In this document: one piece after another, positions 20,980-24,828 of the stretch
Layout: every line of letters starts with the position of its first letter
Position numbering within the stretch: the stretch's first letter is position 1
NCBI GenBank assembly: GCA_025359125.1
Contig: JANYHI010000037.1
Span: 1-64,000 of the forward strand
DNA length: 64,000 bases
Reading direction: 5' to 3'
From: Cytophagales bacterium
GTDB lineage: Bacteria; Bacteroidota; Bacteroidia; Cytophagales; Cyclobacteriaceae
The notes under the pieces: model-generated
Seen by the model: the letters and a program-made list of their open reading frames with translations, nothing else
The model's database searches: none
Told to the model about the DNA's origin: nothing
Program-made: the position numbers and the translations under genes

Positions 20980-21366
20980 ATGGAGTTTTTAGAAACGCAG
21001 GATCCCGAAAGAAGAAAGTTAATTGAAACTTCCGATAGGCATAAATACGAATTAGACAAAGAGATAAAATCAATTTCTGATAAAACAGAAAAGACTCTAA
21101 ACAACGCCTTGATTATTGGAGGCGTATTGGCAGCCACTTATTTAGTAGTAAGCTCTTTTTCTTCAACTAAGAAGAAAAAGAAATCAAAAATGAAACCTGC
21201 AGATAATACAAATGAGGTGGAGGAAGATGAAGAAGTGTCTCCAACTTTATTTTCACAAATTGGTGCCAAGGTGGCAGACGCGGCCACAATAGTGTTGTTA
21301 GATTTAGCAAAAGAAGCACTGGCAGAATTTTTAAAAAATAGGAAACAAAAAGATGGCGATTCTTAA
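20980..21366 (+). CDS. Small single-helix membrane protein, unknown function
   Basis: A 128-residue protein: a charged N-terminal coiled-coil-like part (RRKLIETSDRHKYELDKEIK), one helix (NNALIIGGVLAATYLVVSSF), a lysine-rich patch, an acidic segment, and a C-terminal amphipathic helix. I do not recognise a named family. It follows the holin-like gene closely and overlaps the GGGP synthase start by 14 bases. A frame upstream is open, but the ATG at 20980 gives a normal N-terminus right after the previous stop. Confidence 0.65.
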   Translation: MEFLETQDPERRKLIETSDRHKYELDKEIKSISDKTEKTLNNALIIGGVLAATYLVVSSFSSTKKKKKSKMKPADNTNEVEEDEEVSPTLFSQIGAKVADAATIVLLDLAKEALAEFLKNRKQKDGDS

Positions 21367-22117
21367 AGGCTTAGAAGAACGTTACCGTCAAGGAAAAAAA
21401 TCAATTGCCGTATTGGTTGATCCTGACAAAGTCGAAGATCCATCGCAATTAGATCCGCTCATTCGCCTTGCAAATGAGAATTGTGTTGATTTCTTTTTTG
21501 TTGGAGGCAGCTTAGTTACTACCACTAATATGGGCGATGTAATCCGACATATTAAAGAAAATGTTTCTATACCAGTCGTCATTTTTCCAGGTAGTACCTT
21601 GCAGATAGACCCCGCAGCTGATGCCATTTTATTTTTGTCACTCATCTCTGGAAGGAATCCTGATTACCTGATTGGACAACATGTAGTAGCAGCTCCGATC
21701 TTAAAAAATAGTAGGCTAGAGATAATGCCCACCGGGTATGCACTAATTAACTCAGGAAAGACTACATCTGCAGCTTATGTAAGCAACACCACTCCAATTC
21801 CAGAAGATAAATATTCGCTAGCGGCATGTACTGCCCTCGCAGGCGAAATGTTAGGCTTACGCCTGATTTATTTAGATGCAGGCAGCGGAGCCGAGCGCGC
21901 AATTAGCGCCAAAATGATCACCACTGTTCGCAAGACAATCAATGTTCCTTTAATCATTGGTGGAGGAATTAATACGAGCGAAAAGGCGATTACAGCTTTG
22001 GAGGCTGGTGCCGATATGATTGTAATTGGCAATGCCCTAGAGAAAGATCCCAATTTACTGACTGAGATTTCAGATAAAGTCTATGATTGGAATCAGTCTG
22101 TTAAATCAGAGAGATAG
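21353..22117 (+). CDS. Geranylgeranylglyceryl/heptaprenylglyceryl phosphate synthase (PcrB family)
   Basis: A 254-residue TIM-barrel prenyltransferase joining a polyprenyl diphosphate to glycerol-1-phosphate through an ether bond. Motifs: SIAVLVDPDKV at the N-terminus, VDFFFVGGSLVT, then LIYLDAGSGAERAIS and PLIIGGGINTSEKAI with VIGNALEKDP, the phosphate-binding end. Bacteroidota members are known to make geranylgeranylglyceryl phosphate, an archaeal-type lipid precursor. It follows the small membrane protein gene with a 14-base overlap and precedes the Kdo cluster. Confidence 0.93.
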   Translation: MAILKGLEERYRQGKKSIAVLVDPDKVEDPSQLDPLIRLANENCVDFFFVGGSLVTTTNMGDVIRHIKENVSIPVVIFPGSTLQIDPAADAILFLSLISGRNPDYLIGQHVVAAPILKNSRLEIMPTGYALINSGKTTSAAYVSNTTPIPEDKYSLAACTALAGEMLGLRLIYLDAGSGAERAISAKMITTVRKTINVPLIIGGGINTSEKAITALEAGADMIVIGNALEKDPNLLTEISDKVYDWNQSVKSER

Positions 22118-22260: not shown

Positions 22261-23112
22261 ATGGAAAAAAAGATAGTTAGGGTAGGTAATATAGAATGCG
22301 GAAGTGATGACCTCTTCCTCATTTCAGGGCCTTGCGTAATCGAGGAGGAAAAAATAATGATGGAGACAGCCGAGAAATTAAAAATAATTTCAGAACGTCT
22401 GAAGATCAAGGTCATTTACAAATCATCTTTTCAAAAAGATAATCGCAGCAGCTTAAAATATTATACCGGTCCAGGGCTATCAAAAGGTGTAGCACTTTTA
22501 GCTAAGATTAAAGAACAATTTGGATTTCCGTTGCTTACAGATATTCATTACCCTGATCAGGCCGCTGCCGCGGGTGAGGTAATTGATGTACTTCAAATTC
22601 CGGCTTACTTGTGTATGCAAACAGATTTGATGGTAGCAGCGGCTAAGACTAAGCGTGTGATTAATATTAAACACGGTCAGTTTTTAGCTCCCGATAACAT
22701 GAAGCACCCTGTAGGTAAGTGTGTGGACAGTGGTAACGATCAAATTATTTTAACAGAACGCGGATTCACTTTTGGCTACAACGATTTGATTGTTGATCCT
22801 AGAAGTTTCTATCACATGAATAAAATTGGATACCCTGTAGTATTTGATGTAACGCATGCAATTCGCAAGTATGGTATTCCTAGTGCCGATGTAAAAGGAG
22901 GAGCTCGTGAATTTTTACCCGTGCTTTCGCGCGCAGGTGTTGCCGCAGGAGTAGACGGTATTTTCATAGAAGCGCATCCTGACCCTGACAAAGCTTTATG
23001 CGATGCCGCCAGCCAATTAAATATCAATCAACTAGAAGAATTTTTAAAACCACTTATTGAACTTCATACAGTGGAAGTAAAATTCCGCGAAAAATCTCTT
23101 ATTACTCATTAA
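22261..23112 (+). CDS. kdsA: 3-deoxy-8-phosphooctulonate synthase (Kdo-8-P synthase), metal-dependent type
   Basis: Condenses phosphoenolpyruvate with arabinose-5-phosphate to Kdo-8-phosphate for lipopolysaccharide. It has 283 residues. FLISGPCVIEEE carries Cys25, the metal ligand that separates the metal-dependent class (as in Aquifex) from the Asn-containing E. coli type; VTHAIRKYG and IEAHPDPDKALCD supply the expected His, Glu and Asp ligands. FKSSF-like YKSSFQKDNRSS and TDIHYPDQ are present. It begins the kdsA, transaldolase-CBS, kdsC-like run. Confidence 0.96.
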   Translation: MEKKIVRVGNIECGSDDLFLISGPCVIEEEKIMMETAEKLKIISERLKIKVIYKSSFQKDNRSSLKYYTGPGLSKGVALLAKIKEQFGFPLLTDIHYPDQAAAAGEVIDVLQIPAYLCMQTDLMVAAAKTKRVINIKHGQFLAPDNMKHPVGKCVDSGNDQIILTERGFTFGYNDLIVDPRSFYHMNKIGYPVVFDVTHAIRKYGIPSADVKGGAREFLPVLSRAGVAAGVDGIFIEAHPDPDKALCDAASQLNINQLEEFLKPLIELHTVEVKFREKSLITH

Positions 23113-23122
23113 ACTTTAAACC

Positions 23123-24130
23123 ATGGAATTGTATTTAGACTCAGCCGACCTTAAAGAAATTGAAGAAGCATTTCAGCTTGGCTTTTTAAACGGACTTACC
23201 ACTACGCCAACATTTATGCACCGCGGTGGTGTTACCGATGTAGACGGATTGATTGTAAAATTATCAAAGATTGTTCCCGTTCTTCAAATCGAAGCATTGG
23301 GCGATACGGCTGAGCAAGTTTTAGCGGAAGCAAAACGCCAATTAGACTTAGGTCTTGATCCTACAAAAACAGTTTTTAAAATTCCCGTTTCTTTAGAAGG
23401 TGTTAAAGCGTGTAACTTATTGCGTAAGTCTGGGCTGTTGGTAAATGTGCATTTGGTGTACACTCTTCAGCAAGCGTATATGGCTATGCATGCAGGTGCA
23501 ACCTATGTGTGTCCGTTAGTGGGTCGTTTGCAAGATCAAGGGCACGATGCGTTGGATTTAGTAAGCCAATGTGTAAACGCAGTTGATCATTATGGATACG
23601 ATACGAAAGTAATGTTCTCTTCTGTTCGCCATGCAGAGCACGTGCGCAACGCTATTAATTTAGGCGTTCACACTATTACTGCTCCTTGGAAAGTAATGAA
23701 AGCACTTACAGACAATAATCTTACTGCTTTAGGAACACAACAATTTGTGGAACATACCAAGTTGATGACCGTGCGAGTGAAGGATGTGCTTAGCAGCAAA
23801 AACCCTATCGTAACGGCCGATACTTCTGTAACAGATGCATTGGTTAAAATGACTGAGTATGGTTTTGGTAGCATTACGGTTACAAAAGACAACAAAGTAG
23901 TTGGTGTATTTACCGATGGTGACTTGAGAAGAAAGCTTCAAGAGAATGGCCGTGAAATCTTGACTAAGAAAATTGGTGAGTTCCAATACAAAGAGCCGGT
24001 TTCAATTGATGCAGATTCTCTTTTGAACGAGGCTGCTGATTTATTTAAGAAAACAAAGGTAGATACCATTTTGGTAACAGAAAGTGGCAAGCCTGTTGGC
24101 ATGTTAGATATTCAAGACTTGAAAGATTAA
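23123..24130 (+). CDS. Transaldolase/fructose-6-phosphate aldolase-like domain fused to KdsD-like CBS pair
   Basis: A 335-residue fusion. Residues 1-215 align by eye with the FSA/TalC fold: MELYLDSADL with Asp6, VFKIPVS with Lys86 (Schiff-base lysine, Lys85 in E. coli FsaA), and CPLVGR with Arg135. Asn28 of the usual TTNPS is Thr (TTTPTF) and the FSA Tyr131 position is Leu132, so substrate use may differ. Residues about 217-335 are two CBS domains close to those of arabinose-5-phosphate isomerase KdsD (GVFTDGDLRRKL, then TILVTESGKPVGMLDIQDLK). It lies 10 bases after kdsA and 11 before a kdsC-like gene. It may supply or control arabinose-5-phosphate; that is inference. Annotation as plain transaldolase would miss the CBS half. 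Confidence 0.85.
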   Translation: MELYLDSADLKEIEEAFQLGFLNGLTTTPTFMHRGGVTDVDGLIVKLSKIVPVLQIEALGDTAEQVLAEAKRQLDLGLDPTKTVFKIPVSLEGVKACNLLRKSGLLVNVHLVYTLQQAYMAMHAGATYVCPLVGRLQDQGHDALDLVSQCVNAVDHYGYDTKVMFSSVRHAEHVRNAINLGVHTITAPWKVMKALTDNNLTALGTQQFVEHTKLMTVRVKDVLSSKNPIVTADTSVTDALVKMTEYGFGSITVTKDNKVVGVFTDGDLRRKLQENGREILTKKIGEFQYKEPVSIDADSLLNEAADLFKKTKVDTILVTESGKPVGMLDIQDLKD

Positions 24131-24141
24131 TTCAACTATTT

Positions 24142-24828
24142 TTGGAAGCGGCCGGTATACAATCTTTATTCGCTGATATAGGCGGAAGGTTTTGTGTACC
24201 GGCCGCTGACATTCAAGCCAAGCTAAAAAAAGTAAAAGCATTTATTTTTGATTGGGATGGTGTATTCAACGATGGTTCTAAGCGCGACCTTACCGGAAGC
24301 GGTTTTTCTGAGCCCGATGCCATGGGCACCAATATGCTGCGCTTTAGTTACTGGCTTCAAAATAAATCGCTACCGATTACCGCTATCATAACAGGCGAAG
24401 AAAATGAATCTGCACTCTTTTTAGGAAATCGTGAGCGATTTACTTCTCTCTACTTCAAAGCATCTAATAAACTTAAATCGTTCGAACATTTATTAATTGC
24501 AAATAAATTACAAAGTCATGAAGTAGCTTTTGTTTTTGATGATGTTCTTGACTTGGCAGTGGCCGCACAATGCGGAGTAAGGATAGCTGTTCATAGAAAA
24601 ACTAATCCGTTGTTTAATCAATTTATAATTGAAAATAAAATTTCTGACTATCTCACCGGCCAGTCTGGCGGTAACCAATCGGTGAGAGAGGCTTGTGAGT
24701 TAATGATTGGCCTTTATGGAAATTATAACGAAGCTGTCTCTAACCGAATGCAATTTTCGGATTTGTATAAAGAGTATTTAGCTCAGCGGCAGCAAATAGA
24801 AACTGCTATTTATACCGGAATTTCTTAG
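24142..24828 (+). CDS. KdsC-like HAD phosphatase
   Basis: A 228-residue HAD protein with no cap domain. Motif I is IFDWDGVFNDG, motif II ITGEEN, motif III KASNKLKSFEHL (Lys), and motif IV VFDDVLDLAVAAQCGVRIAV, which closely follows the KdsC pattern. KdsC removes phosphate from Kdo-8-phosphate; the position directly after kdsA and the transaldolase-CBS gene supports that. It is longer than the usual roughly 190 residues, with extra N- and C-terminal parts. The start is uncertain: TTG at 24142 is the best standard codon, and the frame is open upstream. Confidence 0.75.
   Translation: MEAAGIQSLFADIGGRFCVPAADIQAKLKKVKAFIFDWDGVFNDGSKRDLTGSGFSEPDAMGTNMLRFSYWLQNKSLPITAIITGEENESALFLGNRERFTSLYFKASNKLKSFEHLLIANKLQSHEVAFVFDDVLDLAVAAQCGVRIAVHRKTNPLFNQFIIENKISDYLTGQSGGNQSVREACELMIGLYGNYNEAVSNRMQFSDLYKEYLAQRQQIETAIYTGIS

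Follow-up and report, generated by a model that had tools for sequence, protein, structure and literature searches.

The supply of D-arabinose-5-phosphate (A5P) feeds the first committed step to 3-deoxy-D-manno-octulosonate (Kdo), a sugar of the outer membrane. To our knowledge, an isomerase of the SIS fold is the only enzyme known for this supply in bacteria; KdsD, KpsF and GutQ each consist of a SIS domain and two CBS domains. Here we describe another arrangement, found in a window of 64,000 nucleotides (the whole stretch of DNA that was analysed, contig JANYHI010000037.1) from a Cytophagales bacterium. Between kdsA and a kdsC-like gene, the window encodes a transaldolase/fructose-6-phosphate aldolase (TAL/FSA)-like barrel fused to two CBS domains, hereafter called the fusion. 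From the genomic evidence given below, it is likely that the fusion supplies A5P in place of KdsD as a non-orthologous replacement, and the protein probably represents a new enzyme type for a step that is already known. Literature searches, which were partly at title level and had most subscription papers outside their reach, found no report of a transaldolase–CBS fusion tied to Kdo, A5P, kdsA or lipopolysaccharide.

Known and proposed suppliers of A5P in the genome and its relatives

The genome of the window is a 3.68-Mb draft in 87 contigs and is rated 100% complete. Searching it with the SIS profile PF01380 gave five matches, two of them in a single 615-codon frame, which we take from its architecture to be GlmS, and one each in GmhA, PGI/PMI and MurQ, all three of which exceeded their NCBIfam cut-offs. 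The KpsF/KdsD profile matched only CBS domains at E <0.01, and its three matches at E ≥0.012 fell within the SIS genes just named. A SIS-type KdsD was found by neither the PF01380 nor the KpsF/KdsD search of this genome. A separate TalC, at 281.8 bits, exceeded the FSA/TalC cut-off, so that a TalC apart from the fusion is available to the pentose phosphate pathway. Where the original prediction had considered that a full-length KdsD might exist beside a fusion serving the pentose phosphate pathway only, the genome thus held no KdsD and a separate TalC. The role that it had proposed for the fusion, a stand-in for KdsD, is supported by these two observations, by the mutual exclusion of the two suppliers and by the KdsA that they share.

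Among 39 relatives, 17 carried the fusion, 18 carried KdsD above its cut-off, none carried both and four carried neither; every relative with kdsA (34/34) had exactly one supplier. The genus of the window (n = 25) contained 13 genomes with the fusion, 11 with KdsD and one with neither. A phylum-wide sample of 395 genomes contained the fusion in 6, the window genome included, a number too small to test exclusion; the test was therefore made on 291 genomes sampled from the order, in which the fusion was sought at E ≤1e-60 and KdsD at E ≤1e-40. This sample contained 73 genomes with the fusion (three as partial matches), 170 with KdsD (169 above the cut-off) and 240 with kdsA. The kdsA-bearing genomes comprised 69 with the fusion only, 165 with KdsD only, two with both and four with neither, while the 51 genomes without kdsA comprised 46 with neither, two with the fusion and three with KdsD. 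The two genomes with both suppliers, one of which is rated 7% contaminated, each carried two KdsA, one per clade. Both kinds of supplier were present in eight families (f1, f4, f5, f9, f11, f68, f71 and f72), which indicates that the exchange of fusion and KdsD probably happened repeatedly. Many Bacteroidota are without the usual A5P enzyme and have in its place a transaldolase-like protein with two CBS domains, which most likely fills the same role by other chemistry.

The fusion-linked KdsA formed a clade of its own (SH-aLRT 100, branch 1.52) in a quick tree of 61 chosen rows. Identity to the KdsA of the window was 71–89% within this clade and 38–47% outside it among 27 chosen genomes. Eight of the 165 KdsD-only genomes were flagged by their KdsA score, and seven of them, a lower bound, were confirmed to carry the fusion-type KdsA; the eighth, G580, had a partial kdsA of the other type. 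Six of the seven belonged to genus g20, whose neighbour in the tree is the fusion-bearing genus g11, both being of family f11; the seventh was G524. Genus g20 was mixed, the KdsA scores of its other members being typical of other clades. Both g20 loci that were opened, those of G285 and G674, had the order kdsA–kdsC–kdsB with no fusion there and with a solo SIS KdsD elsewhere (in G285 at 320 bits, against a KpsF cut-off of 204). Their kdsC was of the fusion type and 47% identical to that of the window. Since KdsA of this type occurs beside a SIS KdsD in genomes that have no fusion, it most likely works on A5P, and the fusion and KdsD would be interchangeable sources of it. A second KdsA-like gene, which is very divergent (38% identity, on a branch of 1.97), was seen at L251 (genome G632, contig C1), in a genome that also has a fusion-type KdsA and a SIS KdsD.

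The locus, the fusion protein and its gene neighbourhoods

The features of the locus in the window are as follows:

22261–23112, + strand: kdsA, encoding 3-deoxy-D-manno-octulosonate-8-phosphate synthase (fusion-linked KdsA clade, 'type F'), 283 amino acids, TIGR01362
23123–24130, + strand: TAL/FSA + CBS + CBS fusion, proposed A5P supplier in the place of KdsD, 335 amino acids, from Pfam/NCBIfam and the phylogenetic profile
23129–23776, + strand: TAL/FSA-like barrel domain of the fusion, residues 3–218 (Pfam range)
23378–23380, + strand: codon of the Schiff-base Lys86 of the fusion
23450–23452, + strand: codon of His110 of the fusion
23777–24127, + strand: CBS domain pair of the fusion, presumed regulatory, residues 219–335, two Pfam CBS matches and KpsF profile positions 153–267
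24142–24828, + strand: divergent KdsC-type HAD phosphatase, 228 amino acids, TTG start, KdsC profile

The intergenic gaps were 10 bases between kdsA and the fusion and 11 bases between the fusion and the kdsC-like gene; the open reading frames bear out the tight packing of the three genes that had been noted from the letters. KdsA matched Pfam DAHP_synth_1 and passed two curated NCBIfam cut-offs (TIGR01362, 335.1 against 314 bits; PRK05198, 354 against 242 bits), and its closest solved structures were KDO8P synthases. The best NCBIfam match of the kdsC-like protein was KdsC, at 61.8 bits and under the equivalog cut-off of 208, and Pfam gave no match to it. It aligned to E. coli KdsC (2r8e), and the DxD, IITG, K and DDxxD positions, which we take to be KdsC motif positions, were retained as judged by eye. 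Its TTG start and the context of this codon were also present in the six close relatives compared.

The N-terminal part of the fusion matched Pfam TAL_FSA with 118 bits over residues 3–218, followed by two CBS stretches. An AlphaFold2 model, for which the protein of the window was combined with sequences of 43 among the 80 named loci, had a mean pLDDT of 84 and a pTM of 0.57, with residues 29–35 and 199–205 below pLDDT 50. The top Foldseek match of this model was the TalC-type transaldolase 3r8r (TM by target 0.88), and among the 50 matches listed all belonged to the transaldolase family, FSA included. The barrel was 33–36% identical to TalC. Fold and identity would also fit an ordinary pentose-phosphate transaldolase or fructose-6-phosphate aldolase that lies among Kdo genes by accident. 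This is very improbable: the fusion scored 157.7 bits with the FSA/TalC model TIGR00875, below the curated cut-off of 245.95, while a second gene of the same genome exceeds it, and the changed pocket, the clustering with Kdo genes and the exclusion of KdsD also argue against it.

Of the KpsF/KdsD profile, the C-terminal part of the fusion matched the CBS half alone (TIGR00393 positions 153–267, 71 bits). The fusion therefore has a CBS pair resembling that of KdsD and a TAL_FSA barrel instead of the SIS isomerase domain. In a tree of 48 CBS rows (22 from fusions, 23 from KdsD and three others), the fusion CBS pairs formed one clade (SH-aLRT 96) beside that of KdsD and not nested inside it; 20 of the 45 inner branches were open and several end branches were long. 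The original prediction had described a KdsD that lost its SIS part and kept its CBS part. The missing SIS domain and the similarity of the CBS domains were borne out by Pfam and the KpsF profile; descent of the CBS pair from that of KdsD was not borne out by the tree, which nests no fusion pair within KdsD. 'KdsD-like' is here a term of similarity and not of established descent.

Gene neighbourhoods were collected by a scan of named contigs, in which the best 80 of at least 549 relatives were retained as loci; many loci end at a contig edge, and some lie on the same contigs as members of the relatives set, so that the two sets overlap. By their titles, all 80 came from Bacteroidota or their kin, except for one metagenome-assembled genome titled Azovibrio. 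A fusion is also carried by Chryseolinea serpens DSM 24574 (L127). The loci contained kdsA in 66 cases, kdsC in 66, kdsB in 26, kdnA in 43, kdnB in 42 and KdsD in none, KdsD matches below 35% identity being excluded from this count and taken as CBS matches. The survey of kdsA neighbourhoods in Bacteroidota that had been proposed showed that the order kdsA–fusion–kdsC recurs among the relatives and the named loci, which argues that the arrangement in the window is not due to chance. The order kdnA–kdnB–kdsA–fusion–kdsC–kdsB, in some cases with an extra gene between, was present in 14 of the 80 loci (L130, L133, L138, L139, L144, L147, L149, L153, L154, L157, L158, L161, L168 and L177).

KdnA and KdnB were identified on the proteins of G285, whose best matches in the PDB were 5k8b (430 bits, next 176) and 5k8c (429 bits; runner-up 93 bits, a near copy aside), respectively; no NCBIfam model named either protein above its cut-off. 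The 8-amino-Kdo genes kdnA and kdnB, to which 5k8b and 5k8c belong, are known from Shewanella. Many of the fusion clusters thus look like 8-amino-Kdo clusters, and this suggests that 8-amino-Kdo is produced by many Bacteroidota. Neither kdnA nor kdnB was found within the window.

These neighbourhoods bear on another explanation, by which the fusion makes or removes some other sugar phosphate for the KdsA of its clade and the cluster yields a Kdo-like acid other than Kdo. The separate clade and long branch of the fusion-linked KdsA, the divergence of the linked KdsC, which is below its cut-off, and the presence of kdnA and kdnB in about half of the loci, which points to frequent modification of the end product, speak for it. 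We consider it improbable, since the fusion-type KdsA occurs in SIS-KdsD genomes without the fusion, the fusion-type KdsC was present in both opened loci of this kind, the KdsA of the window exceeds the KDO8P-synthase cut-off, and the PDB relatives of KdnA and KdnB bear names that assign them to Kdo itself.

Two other genes were seen at these loci. A PcrB/GGGP-synthase-family gene (window positions 21353–22117) lies just upstream of kdsA and was also upstream in 6 of the 80 fusion loci. Some loci, among them L132, L141, L143, L151, L152, L174 and L181, carry a gene of about 220 amino acids with a signal-peptide-like start between kdsA and the fusion.

Active-site residues and candidate chemistry

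Alignment with TalC-type enzymes (a ten-row residue alignment, with row L027 left out) showed that D6, E57, K86, N108, R135, S167 and R169 are retained in the fusion. Each was found in 81/81 fusions, so that the Schiff-base lysine and the phosphate-binding Arg/Ser/Arg of FSA and TalC are always present. Five positions differ from TalC, N28T, T110H, S130C, F132L and A166S, each in 81/81 fusions; the asparagine of TTNP, the relay threonine and the Phe/Tyr at position 132 are thus replaced by T28, H110 and L132. The conservation of D6, T28 and T30 was partly selected, as they lie in the search patterns of the locus scan, and that of the other residues was not. The residues named in the original prediction, D6, K86 and R135 as kept, threonine for the asparagine of TTNP and leucine at the position of FSA Tyr131, were all seen in these alignments.

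C130, L132 and R135 of the fusion map to S176, F178 and R181 of TalB, respectively, by our own mapping on the S..F..R spacing. According to the review PMC3962226, S176 of TalB (A129 of FSA) tunes the donor, F178Y converts the transaldolase to an aldolase and R181 binds phosphate. With the residues at the phosphate end retained and those at the donor end changed, the pocket is as expected for a C2 aldehyde or aldose donor instead of dihydroxyacetone, and we infer that the donor of the fusion is of this kind.

In the proposed mechanism, the fusion would provide A5P, which KdsA would condense with phosphoenolpyruvate to Kdo-8-phosphate; the KdsC-like phosphatase and KdsB would convert this to cytidine monophosphate (CMP)-Kdo, and in clusters with kdnA and kdnB the end product would be CMP-8-amino-Kdo instead. 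The barrel, with K86, D6, E57 and the phosphate-binding R135, S167 and R169 kept and the donor pocket remodelled (T28, H110, C130 and L132), may form the K86 imine with an aldose or C2 aldehyde and not with a ketose. A5P could then arise by aldol addition of free glycolaldehyde to glyceraldehyde-3-phosphate (G3P). Alternatively, ribose-5-phosphate (R5P) might undergo retro-aldol cleavage to a glycolaldehyde/G3P pair that stays bound in the site until it is joined again, a net C2 epimerisation that would need no source of free glycolaldehyde. The CBS pair is presumably a sensor, either for a product of the pathway or for a nucleotide.

The formation of A5P from glycolaldehyde and G3P by E. coli FSA is described in PMC9947464, so A5P formation by an FSA-like enzyme is chemically sound. 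In that paper, TalB F178Y is said to form R5P as well. This claim sits badly with the stereochemistry in PMC8208507, where TalB F178Y and Fsa give 2S,3R products with glycolaldehyde and erythrose-4-phosphate and the same is assumed with G3P. If the fusion supplies A5P, the chance that it does so by a Schiff-base aldol route is about even.

The same role could be served by other chemistry, with the barrel acting as an acid–base isomerase that converts ribulose-5-phosphate (Ru5P) to A5P; His110 and Glu57 would be its bases, and a Schiff base would be dispensable. Ru5P is the substrate of KdsD, and the net reaction would equal that of KdsD exactly. By our own reasoning, a lysine imine at C2 of Ru5P gives no aldose by itself, so a Ru5P isomerase would need acid–base catalysis, for which His110, the invariant replacement of TalC Thr110 (81/81), is a candidate. 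The Schiff-base lysine and Asp6 are needless for a plain isomerase and are nevertheless retained, Asp6 being partly selected by the search pattern. This isomerase is possible but doubtful, and its probability overlaps with that of A5P supply by the fusion.

Several points weigh against the supply of A5P by the fusion. A large source of free glycolaldehyde is not apparent to us, and this weakens the plain aldol route. In seven of the 80 loci no match to any of the other five genes was seen; four of these loci (L162, L178, L179 and L180) have more than 3.6 kb on both flanks. The fusion was not beside kdsA in G034 and G027. Three of the four order-sample genomes with kdsA and neither supplier were partial or contaminated (94%/6%, 79% and 69%), and the fourth, G682, is rated 100% complete and must have another A5P source; its kdsA (L260, contig C24) adjoins a kdsC of the ordinary kind, and inspection by eye of 19 kb at this locus showed no recognisable SIS gene. 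A KdsD weaker than E 1e-40 could be missed in the order sample, although the KdsD of Bacteroides ihuae, used as a control, was detected at the same limit while under the family cut-off, so that such forms are reachable. The genomes are mostly drafts and are related, not independent, and a Fisher test on the exclusion is descriptive only. KdsB was found in 36 of the 39 relatives and in 29/29 of those of good quality, but also in all five relatives without kdsA; it therefore lends no specific support and shows only that CMP-Kdo-type activation is possible. The five genomes with KdsB and no kdsA match (E 1e-40) were G006 and G035, which are less than 90% complete, G031 and G037, of 1.6 Mb, and G033, of one contig and 3.3 Mb.

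A further objection is that the fusion might serve the Kdo genes as a sensor or regulator, while a different SIS enzyme, for example GlmS or GmhA, provides the A5P; both of these are present in the genome of the window. CBS domains often act as nucleotide sensors. PMC11301363 describes GFAT-type SIS enzymes as able to form A5P from Ru5P: the human GFAT catalyses this isomerisation, and an A5P-isomerase mutant of E. coli is rescued by several GFATs from eukaryotes. The catalytic residues of the barrel are invariant, which argues against a sensor. GlmS, which is presumably near-universal, would leave the mutual exclusion unexplained. There is thus only a slight chance that this explanation holds, and the fusion remains the likely supplier of A5P.

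Meaning and comparison with known systems

Taken together, the fusion may represent a new natural family of A5P synthases with a transaldolase fold, which builds a carbon–carbon bond or epimerises through a Schiff base, is controlled by CBS domains, was exchanged with KdsD many times in Bacteroidota and often lies in 8-amino-Kdo clusters; the chance that this full picture is right is about even. A second, unrelated A5P enzyme would close a gap in the pathway of many Bacteroidota genomes, annotations as plain transaldolase would need correcting, and inhibitors of KdsD would miss fusion-bearing bacteria. A natural A5P-forming aldolase or epimerase would also be gained. In glycolaldehyde assimilation, according to PMC9947464, A5P-forming activity has so far been used from E. 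coli FSA and engineered TalB, and a better aldolase for this product is wanted.

Compared with TalC/FSA (TIGR00875; PDB 3r8r, 1vpx and 3s0c; E. coli FSA), the fusion has the same barrel and the same Lys86, Asp6, Glu57, Asn108, Arg135, Ser167 and Arg169, but differs in the five substitutions, in its two C-terminal CBS domains, in its sub-cut-off score and in its setting among Kdo genes. It resembles KdsD/KpsF/GutQ (TIGR00393 and PRK10892) in its CBS pair, in its place in the pathway and in the one-for-one exchange among genomes, but it has no SIS domain, its catalytic fold is unrelated and its CBS pair is not nested in that of KdsD. As for the 8-amino-Kdo (Kdo8N) system, about half of the 80 fusion loci, like the KdsD genome G285, have relatives of kdnA and kdnB on the upstream side of kdsA, whereas the cluster of the window consists of kdsA, the fusion and the kdsC-like gene without them.

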